Shown here piece after piece: positions 4,386 through 18,208 of a stretch of DNA of 64,000 nucleotides. Below the pieces are notes generated by a model. The model saw nothing but the letters and a program-made list of their open reading frames with translations, did no database searches and was not told the origin of the DNA. This DNA comes from Acidobacteriota bacterium (lineage in GTDB: Bacteria > Acidobacteriota > Terriglobia > Acidiferrales > UBA7541), in assembly GCA_013289665.1 (NCBI GenBank), contig JABCZN010000009.1, positions 62,001 to 126,000 on the forward strand, written 5' to 3'. Position numbers and translations under genes: made by a program. The stretch's first letter is position 1; each line of letters starts with the position of its first letter.

Positions 4386-5777
4386 ATGCCTCCCCCGCAG
4401 CATTACGACTCCATTGTGATCGGCTCCGGCCAGGGCGGCACGCCCCTTTGCCAGGCCCTCGCCAGTGCTGGCCTGCGCACCGCGCTTATCGAAAAAATCC
4501 ACGTCGGCGGCACATGCATCAACGAAGGTTGCACCCCCACAAAGACCATGGTCGCCAGCGGACGAGTCGCCTATCTTGCCCGCCGCGGCCCCGATTACGG
4601 CGTCCACACCCGCGCCGTGCGCATCGCCATGGAGCGGGTCCGCAAACGCAAGCGCGACATTGTCGTTTCCTTTCGCTCCGGCAGCGAGCGCCGCATCGCC
4701 AAAACCAGGAACCTCAATCTCATCTATGGTCAAGCTTCTTTCACCGGCCCCAAATCCATCGTTGTCCGCACACCCAAGCGCGGCGAACTCCATTTCACCG
4801 CCGACCGTTTCTTTATCAACGCCGGATGCCGCCCCACCGTTCCGGACATTCCCGGGCTTTCTGAGGTTCCCTTCCTCAACAGCACCTCCATCATGGAACT
4901 TGCCAAGGTTCCGGCGCATCTCTTCGTTCTCGGCGGCGGCTACGTTGGCCTGGAATCCGCGCAACTCTTTCGCCGCCTCGGCAGTCGCGTTACCATCCTC
5001 CAACGCGCCCCGCAACTCCTCAGCGGTGAAGACAAAGACATCGCCGAAGCCGTCGCCGGCATCCTTCAGCAAGACGGCATCCAGATCCATCTCGACTCTG
5101 CCGTCGAGGAAGTTTCGGGTTCCCGCAATCGCATCACCGTGAACTTCCGCACCGCAGGAAAATCCCGCAAGCTCGAAGGCACCCACCTCCTCGTCGCCAC
5201 GGGACGCGTTCCCAACTCCGACACGCTGAATCTCCCCGCCGCCGCAATCTCCGCCGACGCCCACCGCTTCATCCGCGTCAACGAAAAACTCGAAACCTCC
5301 GCGAAAGACATCTTCGCCCTCGGCGACATCAAGGGAGGCCCTGCCTTCACGCACATTTCCTACGACGATTTCCGCATCCTTCGCGCCAACCTGCTCGAAA
5401 ATGGCAACGCCTCCACGACGAATCGCCTCGTGCCGTACACCGTCTTCATTGATCCGCAACTCGGCCGCATCGGCATTTCCGAAGCCGAAGCCCGCGCGCA
5501 AAACCTCGCCGTCCGCATCGCCAAAATGCCCATGAACTACGTCGCCCGCGCCCTCGAAGTGGACGAATCCCGCGGCTTCATGAAAGCCATCGTTGACGCC
5601 ACCACCGACCAGATCCTCGGGGCCGCCATCCTCGGCATCGAAGGCGGCGAAATCATGGCCCAACTCCAAATCGCCATGATGGGCCAACTCCCCTACACCA
5701 CCCTGCGCGATGCCGTCTTCGCACACCCCACCCTAGCTGAATCCTTCAACAACCTCTTCACCAAGTTCCAGGATTAG
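4386..5777 (+). CDS. class I pyridine nucleotide-disulfide oxidoreductase (mercuric reductase/lipoamide dehydrogenase-like)
   Basis: A 463-residue flavoprotein. It has an N-terminal FAD-binding GSGQGG, the redox-active disulfide GGTCINEGCTPTK, a second nucleotide-binding GGGYVGLESA, the FAD motif IFALGDI and the C-terminal dimer-interface HPTLAES, in the usual order. It resembles the MerA/LPD-like branch but lacks the N-terminal heavy-metal domain and the C-terminal cysteine pair of true mercuric reductases, so mercury reduction is not supported. The substrate is unknown. ATG 4386 is used because homology starts four residues later; a TTG nine codons upstream is less likely. It is monocistronic and convergent with the peptidase gene. 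Confidence 0.85.
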   Translation: MPPPQHYDSIVIGSGQGGTPLCQALASAGLRTALIEKIHVGGTCINEGCTPTKTMVASGRVAYLARRGPDYGVHTRAVRIAMERVRKRKRDIVVSFRSGSERRIAKTRNLNLIYGQASFTGPKSIVVRTPKRGELHFTADRFFINAGCRPTVPDIPGLSEVPFLNSTSIMELAKVPAHLFVLGGGYVGLESAQLFRRLGSRVTILQRAPQLLSGEDKDIAEAVAGILQQDGIQIHLDSAVEEVSGSRNRITVNFRTAGKSRKLEGTHLLVATGRVPNSDTLNLPAAAISADAHRFIRVNEKLETSAKDIFALGDIKGGPAFTHISYDDFRILRANLLENGNASTTNRLVPYTVFIDPQLGRIGISEAEARAQNLAVRIAKMPMNYVARALEVDESRGFMKAIVDATTDQILGAAILGIEGGEIMAQLQIAMMGQLPYTTLRDAVFAHPTLAESFNNLFTKFQD

Positions 5778-9060: not shown

Positions 9061-9195
9061 CTGAAAGTGACATTTGCCAATCGTTTCCCCAACGGGACTT
9101 GGCTCTACATTAAGGCATCAGTCGGAGTTCGGAAACCGTCTCACTAGCCCTCGAGTACTTCCACACCCTCGCGAGCAAGGACTGCCTATCACATA

Positions 9196-9380
9196 CACTC
9201 GCGTGCATCTGTAGTTTCCCAGGCACTATTGAAACAATGAGCGCCTTCAGGACAACCGGCCACAGACTCAATGGAGAAAATCGTCATCGGGTCACGCCCG
9301 GATTTCCACAGTCGCGGGCGGCGAGCGCCCGATCAACCGCCCCACCTGGAGCCCAAACGCCCGCCGCCCGTTACCACTCC
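9196..9380 (+). repeat. decayed copy of the ubiquitin-like operon control region and first codons
   Basis: This stretch is a diverged direct repeat of about 11618-11805. Both share CAGGCACTATTGAA, then ATGAGC, GGCCAC and GACTCAATGGAGAAAATCG. In the downstream copy the last ATG begins the membrane protease of the ubiquitin-like operon. Here the same start gives MEKIVIGS and then a related proline-rich peptide (APDQPPHLEPKRPPP), after which similarity stops before the DUF2207 gene. The promoter equivalent is degraded (the -10 reads AAACAA). The DUF2207 and PilZ genes lie between the two copies. Confidence 0.75.
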
Positions 9381-9448: not shown

Positions 9449-10870
9449 ATGCGGCTCCTCGCCTACCCTCGTCGCTCGATTCTCTTCCTCGCTCTGGCGT
9501 CTTTCTGCCCGCAAACGATGCCTGCGCAACGCGAACTCGCTTCCCAGATACAGGTCGCCGTCTTGCCCTCCGGAGTTCCCTCGGGCGCTCCCGGAACATC
9601 GGACCGTCCCGACACCGACCCGCGGCAGTTCTATCTCGTCGACGCCATACTTATTCTTTCCTATTTCGTTGCCTACGCTCTGCTCACGGGCAGGCGCAAT
9701 TCCGCCGCAGTCGTGATCCAGTACGCCCCTCCGGCAAATCTTTCGCCCGCACAGCTTCGTTTCCTGCTCACCGGCGATTCCGATCGCAAAACCGTCGCTG
9801 CCGTAGTGCTGAGCCTCGCCGCCCGCGGCCTCGTCACCATCAAGTGCCTCGACAATTTCTATCTCATCACCAAGCGCTTGGACACTCCTCCGTCCGGTCT
9901 GCCCGCGGAAGAGGATCTGGCCTTCCGCGTCATGTTCGGCCTCGCGCCTGTCGCCGACCGGCCGGTTCCCAATCCGTGGGTTGACAAAGCCGTTCCCGAA
10001 GGCTCCTATCTCCTGCACCCCATCGCCGGCGAAGGCTTCGCGGCCCTTTTGCGCGCCATCCAGAAGGCGCTGCGCACCGGTTACGAACGCAGACTCTTCA
10101 CCCGTCATTTGGTTTTCTCCATCCCTGCCGCGGCTTTCTCCATCTATTTTCTGTCTTCCGCCGGCAAGGTCTTCCCCTATTCCGTGATTTTCGCCGGTAC
10201 GATCCTTGCCGGCGTGCTCTTCGCCAATTTTACACCCTACGTACGCGACGCTCTCCGTGGCCGCAGTTCCCCGCAGCAGAAAAGCCTCATGACCGTGTTG
10301 ATCTTCATCTACATCTCCTACGCCGGCATTATCTCCGGAGTTTCCCGCGAATATCCGAACACGTTTCTGTTCACACTGTTCCTGGCCATCTTCGTCAACG
10401 TCTGGTTTCCCATCAAACTCCGCAGCCTCACTGCGGAAGGCCGCAGGCTTCTCCACGAACTCAAAGGCTACAAGATATTCCTGACCACCGTGGAGGTGGA
10501 TCGCCTCCAGCGCGTCATCGGCGACAACTGGACGCCGTCAGAGACCACCACCAATCTCGCTTACTCCGTTGCGTTTGATCTTCACGGCACCTGGGAAGAC
10601 TACCTCGCCCAATCGGATTTCCATTCTGTCTACTGGAGGCCCAGCCAGACCAAGCCGGCCTTCCCGGGACTGCCCCTAAACGATGCTGTCGGCCCTGTCA
10701 CCGCGTCCTTCCGCCGCTACCTCATCCATACCGGCGTTTTGTGCGTCCTCGTGCTGATCGCCAACGGCCTGGCGCACTCTAACGTCGAATTCATTTTCTA
10801 TCTGCTCATCTTCGCCGGCATTGCACGCTTCGCCCAATACGTCCACGAAGCAAACCAGGCCAATCAGTAG
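9449..10870 (+). CDS. DUF2207-like membrane protein
   Basis: A 473-residue protein with an N-terminal signal or anchor (ILFLALASFCPQTMPA). A first helix lies near residue 62-80, then a soluble part containing PPANLSPAQLRFLLTGDSDRK and AVVLSLAARGLVTIK, which are hallmarks of the C-terminal half of DUF2207 proteins. Central and C-terminal helices flank the motif GRRLLHELKGYKIFL. The extracellular beta domain usual at the N-terminus of DUF2207 is missing. The start has a GAGGAAA ribosome binding site. Function is unknown. A decayed copy of the ubiquitin-like operon leader lies immediately upstream. Confidence 0.75.
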   Translation: MRLLAYPRRSILFLALASFCPQTMPAQRELASQIQVAVLPSGVPSGAPGTSDRPDTDPRQFYLVDAILILSYFVAYALLTGRRNSAAVVIQYAPPANLSPAQLRFLLTGDSDRKTVAAVVLSLAARGLVTIKCLDNFYLITKRLDTPPSGLPAEEDLAFRVMFGLAPVADRPVPNPWVDKAVPEGSYLLHPIAGEGFAALLRAIQKALRTGYERRLFTRHLVFSIPAAAFSIYFLSSAGKVFPYSVIFAGTILAGVLFANFTPYVRDALRGRSSPQQKSLMTVLIFIYISYAGIISGVSREYPNTFLFTLFLAIFVNVWFPIKLRSLTAEGRRLLHELKGYKIFLTTVEVDRLQRVIGDNWTPSETTTNLAYSVAFDLHGTWEDYLAQSDFHSVYWRPSQTKPAFPGLPLNDAVGPVTASFRRYLIHTGVLCVLVLIANGLAHSNVEFIFYLLIFAGIARFAQYVHEANQANQ

Positions 10871-11186: not shown

Positions 11187-11543
11187 ATGCATGAAGATGA
11201 AGCGCTCCACGGCAGGACGGAACGGCGACTACCAATGATTGTGGTGGTTCGCCTCGCAAATCTGGAGCTCCCAGGTTCCGACGGCATAGAGTGGACCTAC
11301 ACGGATAACGTCAGCGGACACGGGGCCCGCGTATTCTCCAAGCGCCCCTGGCGGACCGGTGAGGAGATTGCGATCACTCCTTTCAATGAACAAACGACCC
11401 AGGGAAGCGTCGTCTATTGCCAGCGGCTGGCGGACGGCCGCTGTTTTATCGGGGTGAATTTCAAAGATCGCGTGGCATGGTCGGTTGTGCGCAGATACAA
11501 CGGCATAAAAACCGACGCCCCACCCAGACCAAAGTCCAGTTAG
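11187..11543 (+). CDS. PilZ-domain protein
   Basis: A 118-residue single-domain protein. RTERRLP provides the RxxxR motif and DNVSGHGARV the (D/N)xSxxG motif, so both halves of a cyclic-di-GMP site are present, better conserved than in the PilZ protein at 2.9 kb. It probably binds cyclic di-GMP. It lies 158 bases upstream of the ubiquitin-like operon, which has its own promoter, so co-transcription is doubtful. Confidence 0.8.
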   Translation: MHEDEALHGRTERRLPMIVVVRLANLELPGSDGIEWTYTDNVSGHGARVFSKRPWRTGEEIAITPFNEQTTQGSVVYCQRLADGRCFIGVNFKDRVAWSVVRRYNGIKTDAPPRPKSS

Positions 11544-11637
11544 AGAGCAAGTCCTCAGGTCACCATCCGCACGGCTGGCTGAAAATGCACAAAACCCCTG
11601 CGAATAACGCATTTCTCTCACATGCACCCCCGGGCAG

Positions 11638-11666
11638 TTGTAATTTCCTAGGCACTATTGAATAAT
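11638..11666 (+). promoter_or_regulatory. predicted promoter of the ubiquitin-like operon
   Basis: TTGTAA (11638-11643) and AATAAT (11661-11666) are separated by 17 bases and lie 35 bases before the first start codon. The same block is recognisable, but degraded, about 2.4 kb upstream. It is assigned by consensus only. Confidence 0.5.
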
Positions 11667-11701
11667 GAGCACCTTCACACAAAGGACCGGCCACGGACTC
11701 A

Positions 11702-12763
11702 ATGGAGAAAATCGTCATCGGGTCTGGCGAAATTTCCGCAGTCGCCCCGCCAGCGCCCGATCAGCCGCCCCGCCTGGAGCCTAAGCTCCCGCCGCCCGTT
11801 CCCCTATGGGCAAAAATCGCGGTTTCGCCTTTGGTTTTGTTGCTCCCCGTCCTTTGCATCGTTACGCTGATCGTTCGCGTGGCCATGCGCGGACTGCCGC
11901 CACGCACCCGGTTCGCCTGGCTTTCGTTTCTCTCCACCCTGCTGATCATCAGCGGCATGTTGACCTCGGCCGCCGCCGTCCTTAGCGTCGCGTTCGTTCC
12001 GCTCCCCGCCATCGTCAGCCAAAGCCTCAGCGAACTCGACGCCAAAAGCGTCTTCCCCGCTCTTCCTACATCCATCCCAATGTCCGCCAGGGAAATTTCC
12101 GAAGCGCTGAAGCCACTCGTCGCGGTAATCACTCCCGCGCGGCGCACCTGGTTCAATCACAACGAAGTTCCATCCAACGGCTTCGGCGCCGGTGTCCTTC
12201 TCGAAGCCACTTCGAGCGGCTACCTGCTGGTCACCGCACGCCACGTGATTGACGAATCCGCATTCCAGCGGGGCGGCGCCCGCGCGCTGGTCGCCATGGC
12301 TTCCGGCACCTGGGCCGGCGCCGACGTCATTGCCCGCCACAAAAATCTCGACTTGTGCCTGATCTGGCTCCCGCGCGAAAGCGGCAGCGGCGAATTTGTT
12401 CAGCCCGTCGAGCCAAAAAAACAAATCAGCGAAGGCGAAAATATTTTCGTCATCGGCCATCCGCAGGGACTTCGCTTCACGCTGAGCACCGGCATCATCT
12501 CTCGCGCCGATAACGACGCCATCCAGATCACCGCTCCCGTCAGCCCCGGCAACAGCGGCGGCCCCGTCTACGACGAGCGGGGCAACCTCCTCGGCGTGGT
12601 CACCTCCATGGTCGACCGCAACCTCAGCCCCAACGCCGAAAACCTCAATTTCGCCGTGCGCGCCGACGCCGTGCTCGATCCCGACCGCTGGGATTTTTCT
12701 GCCGGCGGCCGCAAGCACCTCGATGACTTTCTTTCCGCGGTAACAAAGAAGGCTCCGAAATAA
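11702..12763 (+). CDS. membrane-anchored trypsin-like serine protease, first gene of the ubiquitin-like operon
   Basis: A 353-residue protein. A proline-rich N-terminal tail (residues 14-34, PAPDQPPRLEPKLPPPVP) is followed by two membrane helices (about 36-60 and 72-98) and a chymotrypsin-fold protease domain of the DegP type. The catalytic triad is His181 (TARHVI), Asp217 (HKNLDLCL) and Ser285 (SPGNSGGPV). There is no PDZ domain. With two helices, the protease should lie on the same side as the N-terminus, probably the cytoplasm. It is 25 bases from the ubiquitin-like gene. By position it may mature the ubiquitin-like protein or degrade conjugates, but that is inference. No clear Shine-Dalgarno precedes the ATG. 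Confidence 0.88.
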   Translation: MEKIVIGSGEISAVAPPAPDQPPRLEPKLPPPVPLWAKIAVSPLVLLLPVLCIVTLIVRVAMRGLPPRTRFAWLSFLSTLLIISGMLTSAAAVLSVAFVPLPAIVSQSLSELDAKSVFPALPTSIPMSAREISEALKPLVAVITPARRTWFNHNEVPSNGFGAGVLLEATSSGYLLVTARHVIDESAFQRGGARALVAMASGTWAGADVIARHKNLDLCLIWLPRESGSGEFVQPVEPKKQISEGENIFVIGHPQGLRFTLSTGIISRADNDAIQITAPVSPGNSGGPVYDERGNLLGVVTSMVDRNLSPNAENLNFAVRADAVLDPDRWDFSAGGRKHLDDFLSAVTKKAPK

Positions 12764-12788
12764 TTCGCGCCCTGGGAGACAACGGTTC

Positions 12789-13058
12789 ATGGCCACGATC
12801 AACGTCACCGTCTACGACTCCACGGAAAATAAGCGTGTCCCCGTGGAACTACCCGACGATGCGCCCTGCAACAAAATCATCGCCGTGCTGATACAAAAGC
12901 TGCGTCTCCCCACCAACGGCCCCGACGGCGCGCCGCTGAGCTACAAATTCCATCACAAAAATTCCGGCCGCCAGATTCAGGACACGCAAACCCTCGCCGA
13001 AGCCCAGGTGCAGGACGGCGACATCCTCCGCCTGCAACCGGAGATCACCGCGGGCTGA
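12789..13058 (+). CDS. YukD/EsaB-type ubiquitin-fold protein
   Basis: An 89-residue protein with the beta-grasp pattern of the YukD/EsaB branch of ubiquitin-like proteins. A first strand pair (INVTVYDS and KRVPVELPDD) is followed by a helix (CNKIIAVLIQKLRL), an SYKFHHKNSGRQIQ strand region and the terminal GDILRLQPEITAG. It ends in a single glycine with no residues beyond it, so it could be activated by an E1 without prior trimming. A four-residue tail (ITAG) follows the last strand. It lies 15 bases from the E1 gene. It is the presumed modifier of this operon. Confidence 0.85.
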   Translation: MATINVTVYDSTENKRVPVELPDDAPCNKIIAVLIQKLRLPTNGPDGAPLSYKFHHKNSGRQIQDTQTLAEAQVQDGDILRLQPEITAG

Positions 13059-13073
13059 GCCCGCCACCCGCCC

Positions 13074-14261
13074 ATGACCATCATTTCCAAAAGCGACCTC
13101 CACGAAGATCGCTACAGCCGCCTCCGGTTAATCCCGTGGTGGGACCAGGAAAAACCTGCGGCGGCACGCGTACTGGTCATCGGCGCCGGGGCGCTCGGCA
13201 ATGAAATTCTGAAAAATCTCGCGCTCCTCGGCTTCCGCAACGTGATCATCGTGGATATGGATAAGATTGACGAATCCAATCTTTCCCGCACGATTCTGTT
13301 TCGCACCAGCGACATCGGCGATTTCAAGGTCAACGCCGCAGCCAGCGCGTATCTTTCCATCGCGCCCGACGCCCTGCTGCAGCCCATCGTCGCCAACGTC
13401 ACGCGCGAGTGCGGCCTCGGCCTCTTCGCCTCTTGCGACCTGATTCTCGCCGGCCTCGACAATCGCGAAGCCCGCCTGTGGATCAACCGGTCCGCATGGA
13501 AAGTGAATCGCCCCTGGATTGATGGCGCGATCGAAGGCATCAACGGCGTCGCCCGCGTCTTTCTTCCCGGCGCGGCTCCCTGCTATGAATGCACGCTCGG
13601 CGAGGTGGATTGGGCCATCCTTGAGCGCCGCATGTCCTGCAACCTTCTCACTCACGAAGAAGTCGCCGAAGGCAAAGTCCCCACCACGCCCACGATTTCT
13701 TCCATCGTCGCCGGCATCCAGGTTCAGGAAGCCGTGAAACTTCTCCACGGACTGCCCACGCTTTCAGGAGGCGGCTTCGTCTTCGAAGGCCTGCAGCACT
13801 CCTCCTATCGCGTCGAATACACGGTGAATCCCGACTGCATGAGCCACTACACGCTGCCCTCGGTCGTTTCCCTGCCGCAGGGCTCCAGCGAACTCACGCT
13901 GCACGAATTGTGGCAACGCGCCTCGAATGACCTCGCCTCCAGCGAACTTACCATCGAATTCAGCCGCGACGTTCTTCACAAACTGGTCTGCCCGCACTGC
14001 GCCGCGGAGGAAATTCTCTTCGTTCCCGTCGGCTCCATAAGCTATGAAGCCGGCCGCTGCCGCGCCGACGGCCACATGCGCGTCGTCCACACGCTGCACG
14101 GCTACGAAGGCCGCGAATCCTACGGCTCGCGCAAACTCAGCGAACTCGGCCTGCCTCCCTTCGACATCTTCACTGCGCGCACTTCCTCCCGCGAAACAGG
14201 CTACCTCCTTGCCGGCGACGCTCCCGAGGTCCTCGGCCCGCTGACGCAGGGCGGCGCGTGA
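13074..14261 (+). CDS. ThiF/E1-like ubiquitin-activating enzyme
   Basis: A 395-residue protein. The adenylation domain occupies about residues 15-245, with the nucleotide loop VIGAGALGNEIL (Gly37, Gly39, Gly42), VDMDKIDESNLSRTILF and the LDNREARLWIN segment. Cys170/Cys173 (PCYECTL) and Cys306/Cys309 (CPHC) are a likely zinc site. Cys189 (RMSCN), just before VPTTPTISSIVAG, is placed like the catalytic cysteine of UBA3-type E1s. Residues 250-395 form an extra C-terminal domain. It would adenylate the C-terminus of the upstream ubiquitin-fold protein and pass it to the E2 encoded at the end of the operon. Its stop overlaps the next start (TGATG). Confidence 0.9.
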   Translation: MTIISKSDLHEDRYSRLRLIPWWDQEKPAAARVLVIGAGALGNEILKNLALLGFRNVIIVDMDKIDESNLSRTILFRTSDIGDFKVNAAASAYLSIAPDALLQPIVANVTRECGLGLFASCDLILAGLDNREARLWINRSAWKVNRPWIDGAIEGINGVARVFLPGAAPCYECTLGEVDWAILERRMSCNLLTHEEVAEGKVPTTPTISSIVAGIQVQEAVKLLHGLPTLSGGGFVFEGLQHSSYRVEYTVNPDCMSHYTLPSVVSLPQGSSELTLHELWQRASNDLASSELTIEFSRDVLHKLVCPHCAAEEILFVPVGSISYEAGRCRADGHMRVVHTLHGYEGRESYGSRKLSELGLPPFDIFTARTSSRETGYLLAGDAPEVLGPLTQGGA

Positions 14262-15124
14262 TGTCGAAATCCGCAAAGGACAAACACGCCAACGTCCGCA
14301 TCAGCACGGAAGTGGCGCGCCAGATTCGTCAGCACGCCCGCTCGAATCTCAAAACGGAAGTCTGCGGCGTGCTGATCGGCGGCTTTGAAGACGGCTGCAC
14401 GCACGTCCGCGCTAGCATCGGCGGTGCCAATGCAGCGCAGGGTGGCGCGCACGTCACCTTCACGCAAGACACCTGGGAGCACATTTACAAAATCAAGGAC
14501 CGCAACTTCCCTGACGAGCGCATCGTCGGCTGGTATCACTCGCATCCCGGCTTCGGCATTTTTCTTTCCGATCACGACACCTTCATTCACAAAAACTTTT
14601 TCTCCGCTCCCGAGCAGGTCGCCTGGGTCTTCGACCCGCACTCCGATGAAGAGGGCTGCTTCGGCTGGCACAGCGGCCGTCTCGAACGCATCCCGCGTTT
14701 CTCCTTCACCGACGCGCACGGCGGCGAACCCGCCAACGCCGCAAACAAACCCGAGCCGAGACGCTCTCCGGATCCCGATTCCGAATGGGAAGAAGAGACC
14801 GTCCGCAACGCCAAAAGCAATGACAATGACGATTCCGGCTCCGATGAAGATCTCTCGAAGCTCGCGCGTACCGCCACCATGATCTTTTCTCACCTTGCCG
14901 TGCTGCTCATCGGCGGGCTCCTGGTCTGGTATTTTCTTCCGCATATTGTTGTGTTGCCGGTCCCCGTTGATCCGCAGACCGGCCGGCCTCTGAAGGAGTT
15001 TATGGACCGCAACTTCCTCAACTCCCTTTCTCCCAATTCGGCTCCGGCTCCAGGCAATTCGCCGGCGCCCGCTGCGCCCGCTGCCGGCAAGCCGCAAACA
15101 AAGGGGAATGATGCCCAGCCATAA
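14261..15124 (+). CDS. JAB/MPN (JAMM) isopeptidase with C-terminal membrane anchor
   Basis: A 287-residue protein. The JAMM motif is complete: Glu33 (TEVCGVLIGG), His93, His95, Ser103 and Asp106 (HSHPGFGIFLSDHD). JAMM enzymes of this type cleave ubiquitin-like proteins from conjugates. Residues 150-205 are acidic and disordered. One helix (about 210-232, IFSHLAVLLIGGLLVWYFL) places the catalytic domain in the cytoplasm. The tail after it is Pro/Ala-rich. ATG 14261 overlaps the E1 stop by one base; a GTG at 14258 is the alternative. This is the predicted deconjugase of the operon. Confidence 0.9.
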   Translation: MSKSAKDKHANVRISTEVARQIRQHARSNLKTEVCGVLIGGFEDGCTHVRASIGGANAAQGGAHVTFTQDTWEHIYKIKDRNFPDERIVGWYHSHPGFGIFLSDHDTFIHKNFFSAPEQVAWVFDPHSDEEGCFGWHSGRLERIPRFSFTDAHGGEPANAANKPEPRRSPDPDSEWEEETVRNAKSNDNDDSGSDEDLSKLARTATMIFSHLAVLLIGGLLVWYFLPHIVVLPVPVDPQTGRPLKEFMDRNFLNSLSPNSAPAPGNSPAPAAPAAGKPQTKGNDAQP

Positions 15125-16178
15125 CGACAAAGAACCCCTTCGCATCACTTCGGAGGATTTGGCCGGCGTCGTCGTTCCCGTCGAGGGCCCGGGCCCTGCT
15201 TCGGCATCCGATGGCGCGCCGGCCGCAAAATCCTATGGCTCCATCAACGATGCCGCCGACAAAGCGCCCATCGTCGCCGATGAACGCGGCAGCTTTCTCC
15301 TGCAAGGCTGGTTTTATCTCGGCATGGCCGGACTGATCGGCGCGATGCTCGGTTGGGCTCTTTGCGAACCGGGCTTCGTGGATGGGGCCGGCCCCAACCG
15401 CTGGGGGAATCTGCTGCTGCTTCCCGCGATCATCACCTTCATGTGTATCGGCTTCGGCGTTTCAGAAAGTATCGTTGAGCGCTCACTCGCGAAGGCCTTT
15501 CTGCGTGGCGTGCTGGCCCTGCCCCTCGGGATCATTCTGGGTTTTATTTTTGAGTTCGTCGCCAACATCATCTACAACCTGGGCCTTGCCATGTGTGCGC
15601 AGATGGGCGTGGTCTCCTACCGGAATCCCGCCGCGTGGATTGCGCGCGGGCTTGCCTGGGCGGTCTTCGGCGCGGCCGGCGGCACGATTTACGGGATCGT
15701 CGGCCAGTCGTTCAGAAAGGCGAAGTACGGGATCATCGGCGGCCTGCTCGGCGCGGGGCTTGGCGGAATCATCTTCGACCCCATCGCCATGGCCACCAAG
15801 GGCGGAGCACCGAGCCGCGCGGTCGGCTTCGCGCTTGTGGGCATCGCCACCGGCGTTGCCATGGGCTTGGTGGAAAGCGCGCTGAAAGATCGCTGGCTCT
15901 ACGTCACCTCCGGTCCACTTGCGGGCAAGCAGTTCATTCTCTACAAACAGCTCAGCACCATCGGCAGCCAGCAACAGTCGGATATCTACCTCTTCAAGGA
16001 TCCTTCCATCCTGCCGCAGCACGCGGTCGTTGCCGTCAGCGGCTCGCGCGTGCAACTGAAAGCGCTCGGCACTACCTACGTCGGCGGCAGCCCTGTCAGC
16101 ACACGCGTGCTGCAGGACGGCGACCTGCTGCAGATCGGCCGCTACGCTTTCCGCTACAAGGAGCGCCACCGCTCATGA
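15108..16178 (+). CDS. multi-helix membrane protein with C-terminal FHA-like domain
   Basis: A 356-residue protein. After a soluble N-terminus of about 65 residues there are about five or six membrane helices with many glycines (about 66-250). Residues 262-350 then match an FHA fold (STIGSQQQSDIYLFKDPSILPQHAVV, then DGDLLQIGRYAFRYKE). The arginine of the usual GR motif is replaced by Ser, and the conserved Asn is absent, so canonical phosphothreonine binding is doubtful. It overlaps the JAMM gene by 17 bases (two adjacent ATGs, 15108 and 15111) and the RING gene by four. It could anchor or sense for the pathway at the membrane. Confidence 0.8.
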   Translation: MMPSHNDKEPLRITSEDLAGVVVPVEGPGPASASDGAPAAKSYGSINDAADKAPIVADERGSFLLQGWFYLGMAGLIGAMLGWALCEPGFVDGAGPNRWGNLLLLPAIITFMCIGFGVSESIVERSLAKAFLRGVLALPLGIILGFIFEFVANIIYNLGLAMCAQMGVVSYRNPAAWIARGLAWAVFGAAGGTIYGIVGQSFRKAKYGIIGGLLGAGLGGIIFDPIAMATKGGAPSRAVGFALVGIATGVAMGLVESALKDRWLYVTSGPLAGKQFILYKQLSTIGSQQQSDIYLFKDPSILPQHAVVAVSGSRVQLKALGTTYVGGSPVSTRVLQDGDLLQIGRYAFRYKERHRS

Positions 16179-16864
16179 GCGCCGCCGTCTGCCCCTACTG
16201 CCGCACGCCCGTTGAACCCGATTCGGGCGAGCAGTACCTGTGCACCGGATGCGGCACTCCGCACCACGCCGATTGCTACACAGAAAACGGCGGCTGCACC
16301 GTTTTCGGCTGCAGTGCCGCGCCCGCCGATGAGCAAAAGGTCAGCGTCACCCGCCGTGACATCGCCTCTCCGGTTGCAGGCGCTCCTCCGGCTCCCACGG
16401 CCGGCAATCTGCCCCAAATGCTTCCGGGAATCGGGCTGATGCCGCCGGGCCGCGGTCCCAAGGCCCCGCCGAAGCCGGTCAAGGCTGCGCCGCCTCCTCT
16501 GCCCCCCGGCGCCGCTGCCGCCGCGCCCCAGGTGGCGCGCCCCGTGGCGCGCGTCGGCGTTGGCAGCATGTTTTTTGACGCCCCACCGGTGCCCGTTCCG
16601 GCTTCCTCCACTGCGCCTTCCTTCGATTTCGATCTGGAGCCCGATCCCAACGCAAAAAATCGCAGCACCTTTATCATTCTCGGGGCGCTCCTCGGCTTTT
16701 TCGGCGCTCACAATTTTTACGCCGGCTACAAGCGCAAAGCCGTGGGGCAGCTTTGCCTGACTGCCTTCACCCTGGGTTTCGCCGGAATCATGAGCTGGGT
16801 CTGGGCCGTCATCGACGTTTGCACCGTGGATCGCGACAGCGCGGGAGTCAAATTCAAATCGTAG
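16175..16864 (+). CDS. RING-like zinc finger protein with C-terminal TM2 domain (candidate E3)
   Basis: A 229-residue protein. Residues 6-46 contain eight zinc ligands spaced as in prokaryotic RING domains: Cys6, Cys9, Cys23, Cys26, His30 or His31, Cys34, Cys41 and Cys46. A long proline-rich linker (about 85-150) includes two PPG motifs (MPPGRG and LPPGAA). The end is a TM2 domain (about 165-222: GFFGAHNFYAGYKRKAVGQL, two helices). A membrane-tethered RING beside E1, E2 and a ubiquitin-fold protein is a natural E3 candidate. It starts with ATGA overlap to the FHA gene. Confidence 0.85.
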   Translation: MSAAVCPYCRTPVEPDSGEQYLCTGCGTPHHADCYTENGGCTVFGCSAAPADEQKVSVTRRDIASPVAGAPPAPTAGNLPQMLPGIGLMPPGRGPKAPPKPVKAAPPPLPPGAAAAAPQVARPVARVGVGSMFFDAPPVPVPASSTAPSFDFDLEPDPNAKNRSTFIILGALLGFFGAHNFYAGYKRKAVGQLCLTAFTLGFAGIMSWVWAVIDVCTVDRDSAGVKFKS

Positions 16865-16876
16865 GACCAAACGCCA

Positions 16877-17536
16877 ATGGAATACTTCGTTCAACGCGGT
16901 GAACAGAAATTTGGTCCGTACAGCCTGGCGGAGATGCAGGAATACGCGCAGGCCGGGCGAATCCTCCCCACCGATTTGGCCAAGAGCGAAGGCCTCGCGG
17001 ATTGGGTTCCCGTCTCAGAAATCCTCGGAAATATTCCCGCGCCTGTGGCCGCGCCGGTGGCGGTGGCCCCCCAGGCAGAAACCGTGCCGTTGCCTCCCAA
17101 CCTTCACTGGGCCATCCTGCTGGTGCTGCTGGTGGTGGGAAGAGTGTTTGTAAACTCGCTCTGGCTTCTTTTCAACTGGGTGTGGACGCTGATTCTGGCC
17201 AATTGGGCGCGTCGCCTGAGCGGCACGAACAAGGCCATGGTCCTGGTTGCCATGTATCCCGCGGGATTTGTTGCCGGCGCCCTGGCTCTGGGCTTTGGCG
17301 CGGTCCGGGGGAATGCGGCGACGGAGGGCGTCGGCGGGATTCTGATCTTCGCGGGTCTGATCGCCTACATCGTCGGCATTTTCAAAATCAGGGAGGCGAT
17401 GGAAGAGCATTACAATTCGAAGGAAAATATTGCCCTCACCCTAAGCGGCGTCATGACTTTCTTCTTCAGCACCATCTACCTGCAGTACCATATCAACCGC
17501 ATCGCCCAGTGGAAAAGGACCGGGATTCTGAGCTGA
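16877..17536 (+). CDS. GYF-domain (DUF4339-type) multi-helix membrane protein
   Basis: A 219-residue protein. The N-terminal GYF_2/DUF4339 domain (residues 1-50) reads YFVQRGEQKFGPYSLAEMQE and ends in LADWVPVSE. Four membrane helices follow. The C-terminal part (EAMEEHYNSKENIALTLSG, then YLQYHINRIAQWK) resembles DUF4234-type membrane domains. GYF domains bind proline-rich peptides, and four other proteins of this operon carry proline-rich segments, so a scaffolding role is plausible but inferred. It is 12 bases after the RING gene. Confidence 0.82.
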   Translation: MEYFVQRGEQKFGPYSLAEMQEYAQAGRILPTDLAKSEGLADWVPVSEILGNIPAPVAAPVAVAPQAETVPLPPNLHWAILLVLLVVGRVFVNSLWLLFNWVWTLILANWARRLSGTNKAMVLVAMYPAGFVAGALALGFGAVRGNAATEGVGGILIFAGLIAYIVGIFKIREAMEEHYNSKENIALTLSGVMTFFFSTIYLQYHINRIAQWKRTGILS

Positions 17537-17557
17537 GCAACAGGAACACAAGGACCG

Positions 17558-18208
17558 ATGCCTTCGCCGCGCACACGCCGACTGCTTCTTGACCACCAGA
17601 CGCTTACCTCGCGCCTGGCCGGCTGGCCGCTGATCCAGATCAGCGGCACCGCAGGCATGCCGCCGGAAATTTATCGTTTCACCTATAATCTTCGCGGCCT
17701 GTACGTCGCGCCTAGCGGCGAAATTCTTGAGCGCCAGGTGCATGTGCTCGAAGTCAATCTTTCGCTCGGCTACCCGCGCCGCGCTCCGCAGTGCCGCATG
17801 CTCACCCCTGTCTTCCACCCCAATTTCGACGACTCCATGGTCTGCATCGGCGACTTCTGGGCGGCTTCTGAAGGCCTCGACGACCTGATCATCCGCATCG
17901 GCCGGATGATCACCTATCAGGAGTACAACACCAAAAGCCCGCTTAACGGCCTGGCTGCAAAATGGGCCGCGCAAAACCCCTCGTTGCTGCCGATTGACAC
18001 GCGCAACATCTCTCCCCCTGCCGCCCAACCTCCAGACCCCGGTTCCGCCGTCCAAGCCGCGCAATCTGGATTGCCCGGTCCGGCCGACATTCCTCCGGTG
18101 GTCGCCGCTCCCCTTGAAGCCCTGAGCAGCAACCCCCCAGCTCCTTCTTCAGAAGAGCCTCCTACGCCTCCTCAGGACCCCTGGACAGAGAAAATCTCTC
18201 TCGTCTGA
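17558..18208 (+). CDS. E2 ubiquitin-conjugating enzyme-like (UBC fold) protein
   Basis: A 216-residue protein with a UBC-fold domain in residues 1-145. It has YPRRAP, HPN (87-89), the presumed catalytic Cys96 (MVCIGDFW), and PLNGLAAKWA, which corresponds to the PLNxxAA of eukaryotic E2s. The HPN-to-Cys spacing is as in true E2s. Residues 150-212 are a disordered tail rich in proline. It is the last gene of the operon, 21 bases after the GYF gene. Its role is to accept the ubiquitin-fold protein from the E1 as a thioester and, probably with the RING protein, attach it to targets. Confidence 0.9.
   Translation: MPSPRTRRLLLDHQTLTSRLAGWPLIQISGTAGMPPEIYRFTYNLRGLYVAPSGEILERQVHVLEVNLSLGYPRRAPQCRMLTPVFHPNFDDSMVCIGDFWAASEGLDDLIIRIGRMITYQEYNTKSPLNGLAAKWAAQNPSLLPIDTRNISPPAAQPPDPGSAVQAAQSGLPGPADIPPVVAAPLEALSSNPPAPSSEEPPTPPQDPWTEKISLV

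Follow-up and report, generated by a model that had tools for sequence, protein, structure and literature searches.

What does a bacterium do with a complete set of eukaryote-like ubiquitin-conjugation genes, and is the set in fact built for conjugation? The question is raised by eight tightly packed open reading frames (ORFs) at positions 11702-18208 of the window, the 64,000-nucleotide stretch of Acidobacteriota DNA analysed here. The host is a soil bacterium; its genome is 4.5 Mb long, in 26 contigs and about 77% complete. All eight ORFs lie on the same strand; 25, 15, 12 and 21 bases separate four of the neighbouring pairs, and the other three pairs overlap at their start and stop. A previous reading of the letters alone (the sequence-only reading) had described this layout, which was recovered in full from the ORFs, coordinates included. 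The features are as follows (Ubl, ubiquitin-like protein; TM, transmembrane; aa, amino acids).

11594..11701, + strand: leader/promoter region of the operon; one stretch, 11638-11666, resembles a sigma-70 site, although agreement with the consensus does not by itself show function
11702..12763, + strand: Trypsin_2 HtrA-like serine protease without PDZ (Pfam 5e-23), with two N-terminal TM segments and the triad residues
12789..13058, + strand: YukD-like Ubl of 89 aa (Pfam YukD 1e-15), with the C-terminal tail discussed below
13074..14261, + strand: E1-like activating enzyme of 395 aa (Pfam ThiF 3e-50), with a single adenylation domain
14261..15124, + strand: JAMM/JAB isopeptidase (Pfam JAB 2e-14); translation could also begin at a GTG at 14258
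15111..16178, + strand: polytopic membrane protein with a C-terminal FHA-like domain (Pfam FHA 5e-8, Yop-YscD_cpl 1e-8); alternative ATG at 15108
16175..16864, + strand: RING, Pro-rich linker and TM2 membrane domain (Pfam TM2 9e-11; Prok-RING_1 5e-6, under the cut-off)
16877..17536, + strand: GYF_2-domain membrane protein (Pfam GYF_2 7e-12)
17558..18208, + strand: E2 ubiquitin-conjugating-type enzyme (Pfam UQ_con 1e-8)

Pfam backs each of the eight identities that the sequence-only reading had assigned, the RING match alone being below its cut-off, and the catalytic residues of protease, E1, JAMM and E2 are all located where that reading had placed them. Its count of five membrane proteins also agrees with hydropathy, by which the protease has 2 predicted TM segments, JAB 1, the FHA protein 5, RING 1 and GYF 3; none was found by hydropathy in Ubl, E1 or E2. 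The operon thus appears, as had been claimed, to hold a complete and seemingly conjugation-competent E1/E2/RING/JAMM/Ubl set with membrane anchors. We read it as a predicted membrane-anchored cascade of Ubl conjugation and deconjugation, to which we give a probability of about 0.75, because of its gene content and conservation, its intact active sites, the processed-type tail of the Ubl, the TM segments, the natural fusions and the enrichment of a shared motif.

The window Ubl is a single domain whose final residues are LRLQPEITAG, and its stop codon follows exactly after Gly89. The tail [LIVM]R[LIVM]QPEITAG is found in 46 of 49 aligned rows, with LRLQPEITAG near-invariant, which gives the Ubl the exposed C-terminal glycine suited to conjugation. 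Among the 46 tail-bearing rows, 23 stop at the glycine and 23 extend beyond it by 1-19 unrelated residues, such as AAREN in L029. This alternation of a glycine end and a variable extension is the pattern of ubiquitin-type precursors and is the most telling sign of an apparent competence for conjugation. Since the window Ubl already ends at glycine, it should need no maturation, and its JAMM enzyme would serve tag removal. It is the only YukD-family gene in the host genome. Burroughs and colleagues reportedly proposed that YukD-like Ubls are conjugated. A Verrucomicrobiota locus (L080) has two tandem Ubl genes, at 5102-5356 and 5363-5704; the product of the first has lost PEITAG and would be unfit for conjugation.

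The enzymes that would act on this tail are well preserved. The window E1 has GAGALG at residue 37, the putative catalytic Cys189 and zinc-type CYEC and CPHC pairs at 170 and 306; across 41 sequences, the cysteine and both CxxC pairs show little or no variation. Compared with solved structures, the E1 profile finds the NEDD8 E1 catalytic subunit UBA3 best (1e-34), and NEDD8, SUMO and ubiquitin E1s (1e-34 to 1e-27) come ahead of MoeB (5e-20) and CBASS Cap2 (2e-9). The window E2 has HPN at 87-89 and Cys96, both kept in 49 of 49 sequences, and the E2 profile matches Ube2A/B, E2C and E2N at 2e-9 and weaker. Its variable Pro/Ala linker is followed by a conserved C-terminal DPWTEKISLV (18176-18205). 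The window JAMM has E33, H93-S-H95, S103 and D106; the His, His, Ser and Asp are invariant in 36 JAB sequences and the Glu is nearly so. The protein continues into a C-terminal TM helix (aa 214-232) and a Pro-rich tail.

A single-domain E1 with a CxxC...CxxC zinc pattern is also what MoeB, ThiF and UBA5 have, and the Ubl could in principle be a sulfur carrier or cofactor-synthesis protein, with a MoeB/ThiF-like adenylase beside it and the other genes incidental. The proximity of this E1 to eukaryotic E1s, the invariant E2 site and the presence of RING at 45 and JAMM at 44 of 46 related loci speak against it, as do two other ThiF-family genes in the genome available for such roles, and we regard it as highly implausible. 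Nor does it seem at all probable that the Ubl is an unconjugated assembly part of a non-covalent membrane complex, like the YukD of type VII secretion. The Ubl does belong to Pfam YukD, and YukD of B. subtilis is not conjugated (Iyer 2006, PMC1779556); against this stand the conserved terminal glycine with its variable extensions, the intact E1, E2 and JAMM sites, and a cassette in which no ESAT-6/WXG100 or FtsK/EssC-type genes were found.

A genome-wide pattern scan yielded at least 355 relatives of the window E2, out of which 80 loci were retained. Gene content was counted in those 46 loci whose upstream sequence exceeds 8.8 kb (two of the loci, L029 and L073, are one contig). All 46 have E2; RING was counted in 45, JAB and the FHA-like gene in 44 each, E1 in 43, Ubl in 41, the protease in 33, GYF in 24 and DUF2752 in 15; the extra DUF2752 membrane gene lies, in some relatives, between GYF and E2. 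On these counts the core cassette is Ubl-E1-JAB-FHA-RING-E2, with the protease frequent and GYF mainly in Acidobacteriota. Homologous operons that consistently lack E1, E2 or the Ubl, which the sequence-only reading had named as fatal to its proposal, were not what these loci contain. Four further genomes of the class (L029-L032) have all eight genes in an identical order, so the operon is not a chance assembly. The hosts include Acidobacteriota, Verrucomicrobiota, Planctomycetota, Armatimonadota, Lentisphaerota, Sumerlaeota and Riflebacteria. The E1 tree tracks these phyla closely (7 changes, with a minimum of 6 and a shuffled mean of 19.3), which points to an old and mostly vertical descent with loss.

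Descent bears on the suggestion that the operon serves anti-phage defence of the Bil, CBASS or Bub kind, in which infection would lead to attachment of the Ubl to phage or host proteins. This rivals the purpose proposed here, not the chemistry. The E1/E2/JAB systems of Bil and CBASS are antiviral, and the distribution is patchy: the operon occurs in 3 of 61 relatives, and at E<1e-50 the prevalence is low in Planctomycetota (16/392), Verrucomicrobiota (3/388) and Acidobacteriota (5/396). However, freely moving defence genes would not follow phyla as this E1 does. The 104 flanking proteins, examined with PADLOC and Pfam, are mostly housekeeping, with a handful matching PADLOC models for which there is no baseline set for comparison, and a location in defence islands was rejected on these flanks. 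Carriage by phages was rejected too, since none of 58 pattern matches on viral contigs was a true relative. No toxin, nucleotidyltransferase or CapW/CapHP/CapKS-type regulator was seen in the cassette. A defensive purpose is therefore rather unlikely in our judgement. Seven of the 104 flanking proteins (flanks of L047-L085) belong to the Phi_1 (phosphate-induced protein 1) family.

Comparison with described systems separates the operon from Bil and type II CBASS. BilABCD (Millman 2022; Chambers 2024; Hor 2024) shares Ubl, E1, E2 and JAB with it. However, the four genes of the Bil operon include neither a RING nor a membrane module; its Ubl is ISG15-like with two domains, its E1 combines an inactive with an active adenylation domain, and its E2 carries a CEHH motif (PMC11354881). 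The window Ubl is not tandem as BilA is, and the window E1 has one ThiF domain in its 395 aa, matching PADLOC BilD at just 1.4e-8 over aa 31-143; in the window E2, which has the sequence HPNFDDSMVCIGDFWAASEGLDDLIIRIG, Cys96 is not followed by His, so the CEHH motif is absent. Type II CBASS likewise has E1- and JAB-domain enzymes, Cap2 and Cap3, but Cap2 is an E1-E2 fusion, whereas E1 and E2 are separate genes here; the E1 profile reaches 2e-9 against Cap2 and 1e-34 against UBA3, and the cassette has no CD-NTase/cGAS-like gene. The predicted products of the window operon thus fail the defining features of both Bil and CBASS. Bub (Gong 2025; Ye 2026; PMC13373217) is an operon class of the same bacterial E1/E2/Ubl/JAB type that often adjoins CapW/CapHP/CapKS regulators (PMC13373217); by description rather than by sequence, the window operon differs in having no such gene seen beside it. 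Several distant E2-centred operons of Acidobacteriota (L034, L036, L037, L039, L041 and L044-L046), with 27-35% identity to the window E2, have E1, JAB and a single Ubl, mostly without the RING/FHA module (L041 has an FHA-like gene); they look like other Bil/Bub-like families.

The closest counterparts contain a RING. In the archaeon Caldiarchaeum subterraneum, Ub, E1, E2, RING and an Rpn11-type JAB form one cluster (PMC4197634), comparable by description to the bacterial one. RING-containing prokaryotic Ub-like operons, with Ubl, E1, E2, RING and JAB together, sporadic and often missing in close relatives, were predicted in Actinobacteria, Planctomycetes and Acidobacteria (Burroughs, Iyer & Aravind 2011, Mol BioSyst 7:2261, as related in PMC4197634). 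The window operon co-encodes all five and belongs with this class. As a prediction, the class is not new. The membrane module, the pseudo-FHA domain, the fusions and the shared motif, all described below, appear to be undescribed in the literature covered, where the 2011 work is represented by PMC4197634. New here are the loss of the phosphothreonine pocket in the 'FHA' domain, the RING fusions and a K-I-x-I motif in four proteins.

Prokaryotic RINGs are C4HC3 with a long last spacing (IJMS 2024 review, PMC11354881). The RING proteins of all phyla in this family have a C4HC3 zinc pattern ending in C-x4-C, plus TM helices. The eight zinc ligands are invariant in 31 sequences, and all 31 members match Prok-RING_1 (PF14446) at E<=0.01, the best at 6e-15. 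In the AlphaFold model, the RING is a small treble-clef domain with RING and PHD as its nearest folds. The model of the FHA protein has six long helices (five TM segments by hydropathy) and a C-terminal FHA fold, with a mean pLDDT of 87, and the fold superposes on the FHA of GarA/OdhI at about 1 A. The fold suggested by the sequence-only reading thus stands, while the phosphothreonine recognition that it implied does not: among 28 sequences, the binding Ser (S-R-x-H) is kept in none and the Arg (G-R) in 2. The domain of this 6-TM protein is best described as a pseudo-FHA that has apparently lost its phosphothreonine pocket. Canonical FHA domains occur only in Phycisphaerae, where a second FHA with an intact GR...SRxH signature is fused to RING (L097, L098, L103, L104, L108, L119 and L120).

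Natural fusions are FHA-RING (L097), RING-GYF-CD225 (L069) and RING-Trypsin_2 (L124), and because of them RING, FHA, GYF/CD225 and the protease would be expected to work together. The sequence-only reading had taken membrane anchoring as what sets this operon apart. That view does not survive, as TM-bearing RING and FHA proteins are found in nearly all relatives, across phyla; the predicted membrane segments of RING and FHA are a trait of the family and not a peculiarity of the window operon.

A short motif further ties these proteins together. Its sites in the protease, FHA protein and RING of the window operon are these.

11708-11734, + strand: N-terminal motif of the protease, MEKIVIGSGEI
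15138-15161, + strand: N-terminal motif of the FHA protein, LRITSEDL
16337-16363, + strand: motif in the RING linker, KVSVTRRDI

A 12-residue matrix, [KR]-phi-x-phi-[ST]-x-x-[DE]-phi, was derived from the FHA N-termini alone. It finds the protease N-terminus in 82% of 38 sequences (p<=0.01) versus 2% of control ORFs, and the linker after RING in 62% of 37 (Acidobacteriota/Verrucomicrobiota) versus 3%; the JAB N-terminus was not enriched. The E2 C-terminus, DPW..KIxI, carries the first half of the motif only and fails the matrix. Scored separately, [KR]-phi-x-phi lies within its last 14 residues in 22 of 31 sequences, versus 1.3 in shuffles and 4% of control ORFs. The linkers around the motifs are not conserved. 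In all four proteins (protease, FHA protein, RING and E2) the motif probably serves as a docking peptide, with the same partner binding each of them; as a guess, this partner could be the Ubl, bound as by SUMO-interacting motifs. Docking by phosphorylation was also considered, the S/T-x-x-D of the motif resembling a phosphosite read by FHA domains. It was dropped, because the pocket is lost and because the N-terminal motif of the FHA protein stays undocked, at low confidence, in the AlphaFold model.

The proposed cascade may run as follows. E1 would adenylate Gly89 of the Ubl and load it onto Cys189, from which the Ubl would pass to Cys96 of E2. The TM2-anchored RING in the inner membrane would hold E2~Ubl in place for tagging a target in or near the membrane. 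JAMM, itself tethered to the membrane, would strip the tag and, in relatives with extra C-terminal residues, also mature the Ubl precursor. The 6-TM pseudo-FHA protein and the GYF protein would serve as scaffold and adaptor. The protease (triad H181, D217 and S285) has two N-terminal TM segments with a strongly positive loop in Acidobacteriota, and a signal-like or single one in several relatives. Because of this pattern and loop, its domain is suggested to lie outside the cytoplasm. From this probable position across the membrane, it would couple the cascade to envelope events.

Several observations weigh against this cascade. The positive-inside pattern sets both ends of the protease outside in Acidobacteriota, which clashes with cytosolic docking of its N-terminal motif. 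The cassette contains no unfoldase or degradation partner. The window RING scores 26-27 bits against Prok-RING_1, just below the 29.1-bit cut-off, and fold comparison cannot tell RING from PHD (Z about 5); because of these two points, E3 ligase activity is something that we infer for this protein. A proteasome as partner was rejected: the sole PF00227 match in the genome has 183 aa, by its size presumably of HslV type, and E. coli and B. subtilis match too.

As to purpose, control or turnover of envelope proteins is favoured because the membrane module is conserved and a protease is present; it is a guess, possible rather than probable. A bolder and doubtful version would make the operon a membrane-resident ubiquitination machine laid out like eukaryotic ER-associated ligase complexes. 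In it, the extracytoplasmic protease, pseudo-FHA, RING and E2 would dock through K-I-x-I-[ST]-x-x-[DE], possibly a counterpart of the SUMO-interacting motif that binds the Ubl, and envelope damage outside would lead to tagging of membrane proteins inside.

The leader of the operon has a copy nearby. About 210 bp, comprising the leader and the first protease codons (11594-11803), are duplicated at 9165-9375, 2.43 kb upstream, with 74-97% identity in three blocks; the leader portion of the upstream copy is 9165-9293. This copy retains ATGGAGAAAATCGTCATCGGG but is frameshifted, and it lies ahead of genes for a DUF2207 protein (9449-10870) and a PilZ protein (11187-11543). The duplication may have placed a second copy of the operon's promoter before the DUF2207 gene.

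We know of no experimentally studied member of the RING-containing prokaryotic Ub-like operon class, and to our knowledge E1-E2 conjugation of Ubls in bacteria has been demonstrated experimentally for defence-type systems only. If the present operon conjugates its Ubl, bacteria would possess a ubiquitin-type pathway that depends on a RING and is based at the membrane. The family combines a full eukaryote-like set, RING included, with an E1 that resembles eukaryotic E1s more closely than MoeB or Cap2 and with a membrane module conserved over Acidobacteriota, Planctomycetota and Verrucomicrobiota. Family members in the named strains Edaphobacter aggregans DSM 19364, Acidobacteriaceae ZG23-2 and Spartobacteria LR76 make the pathway testable.

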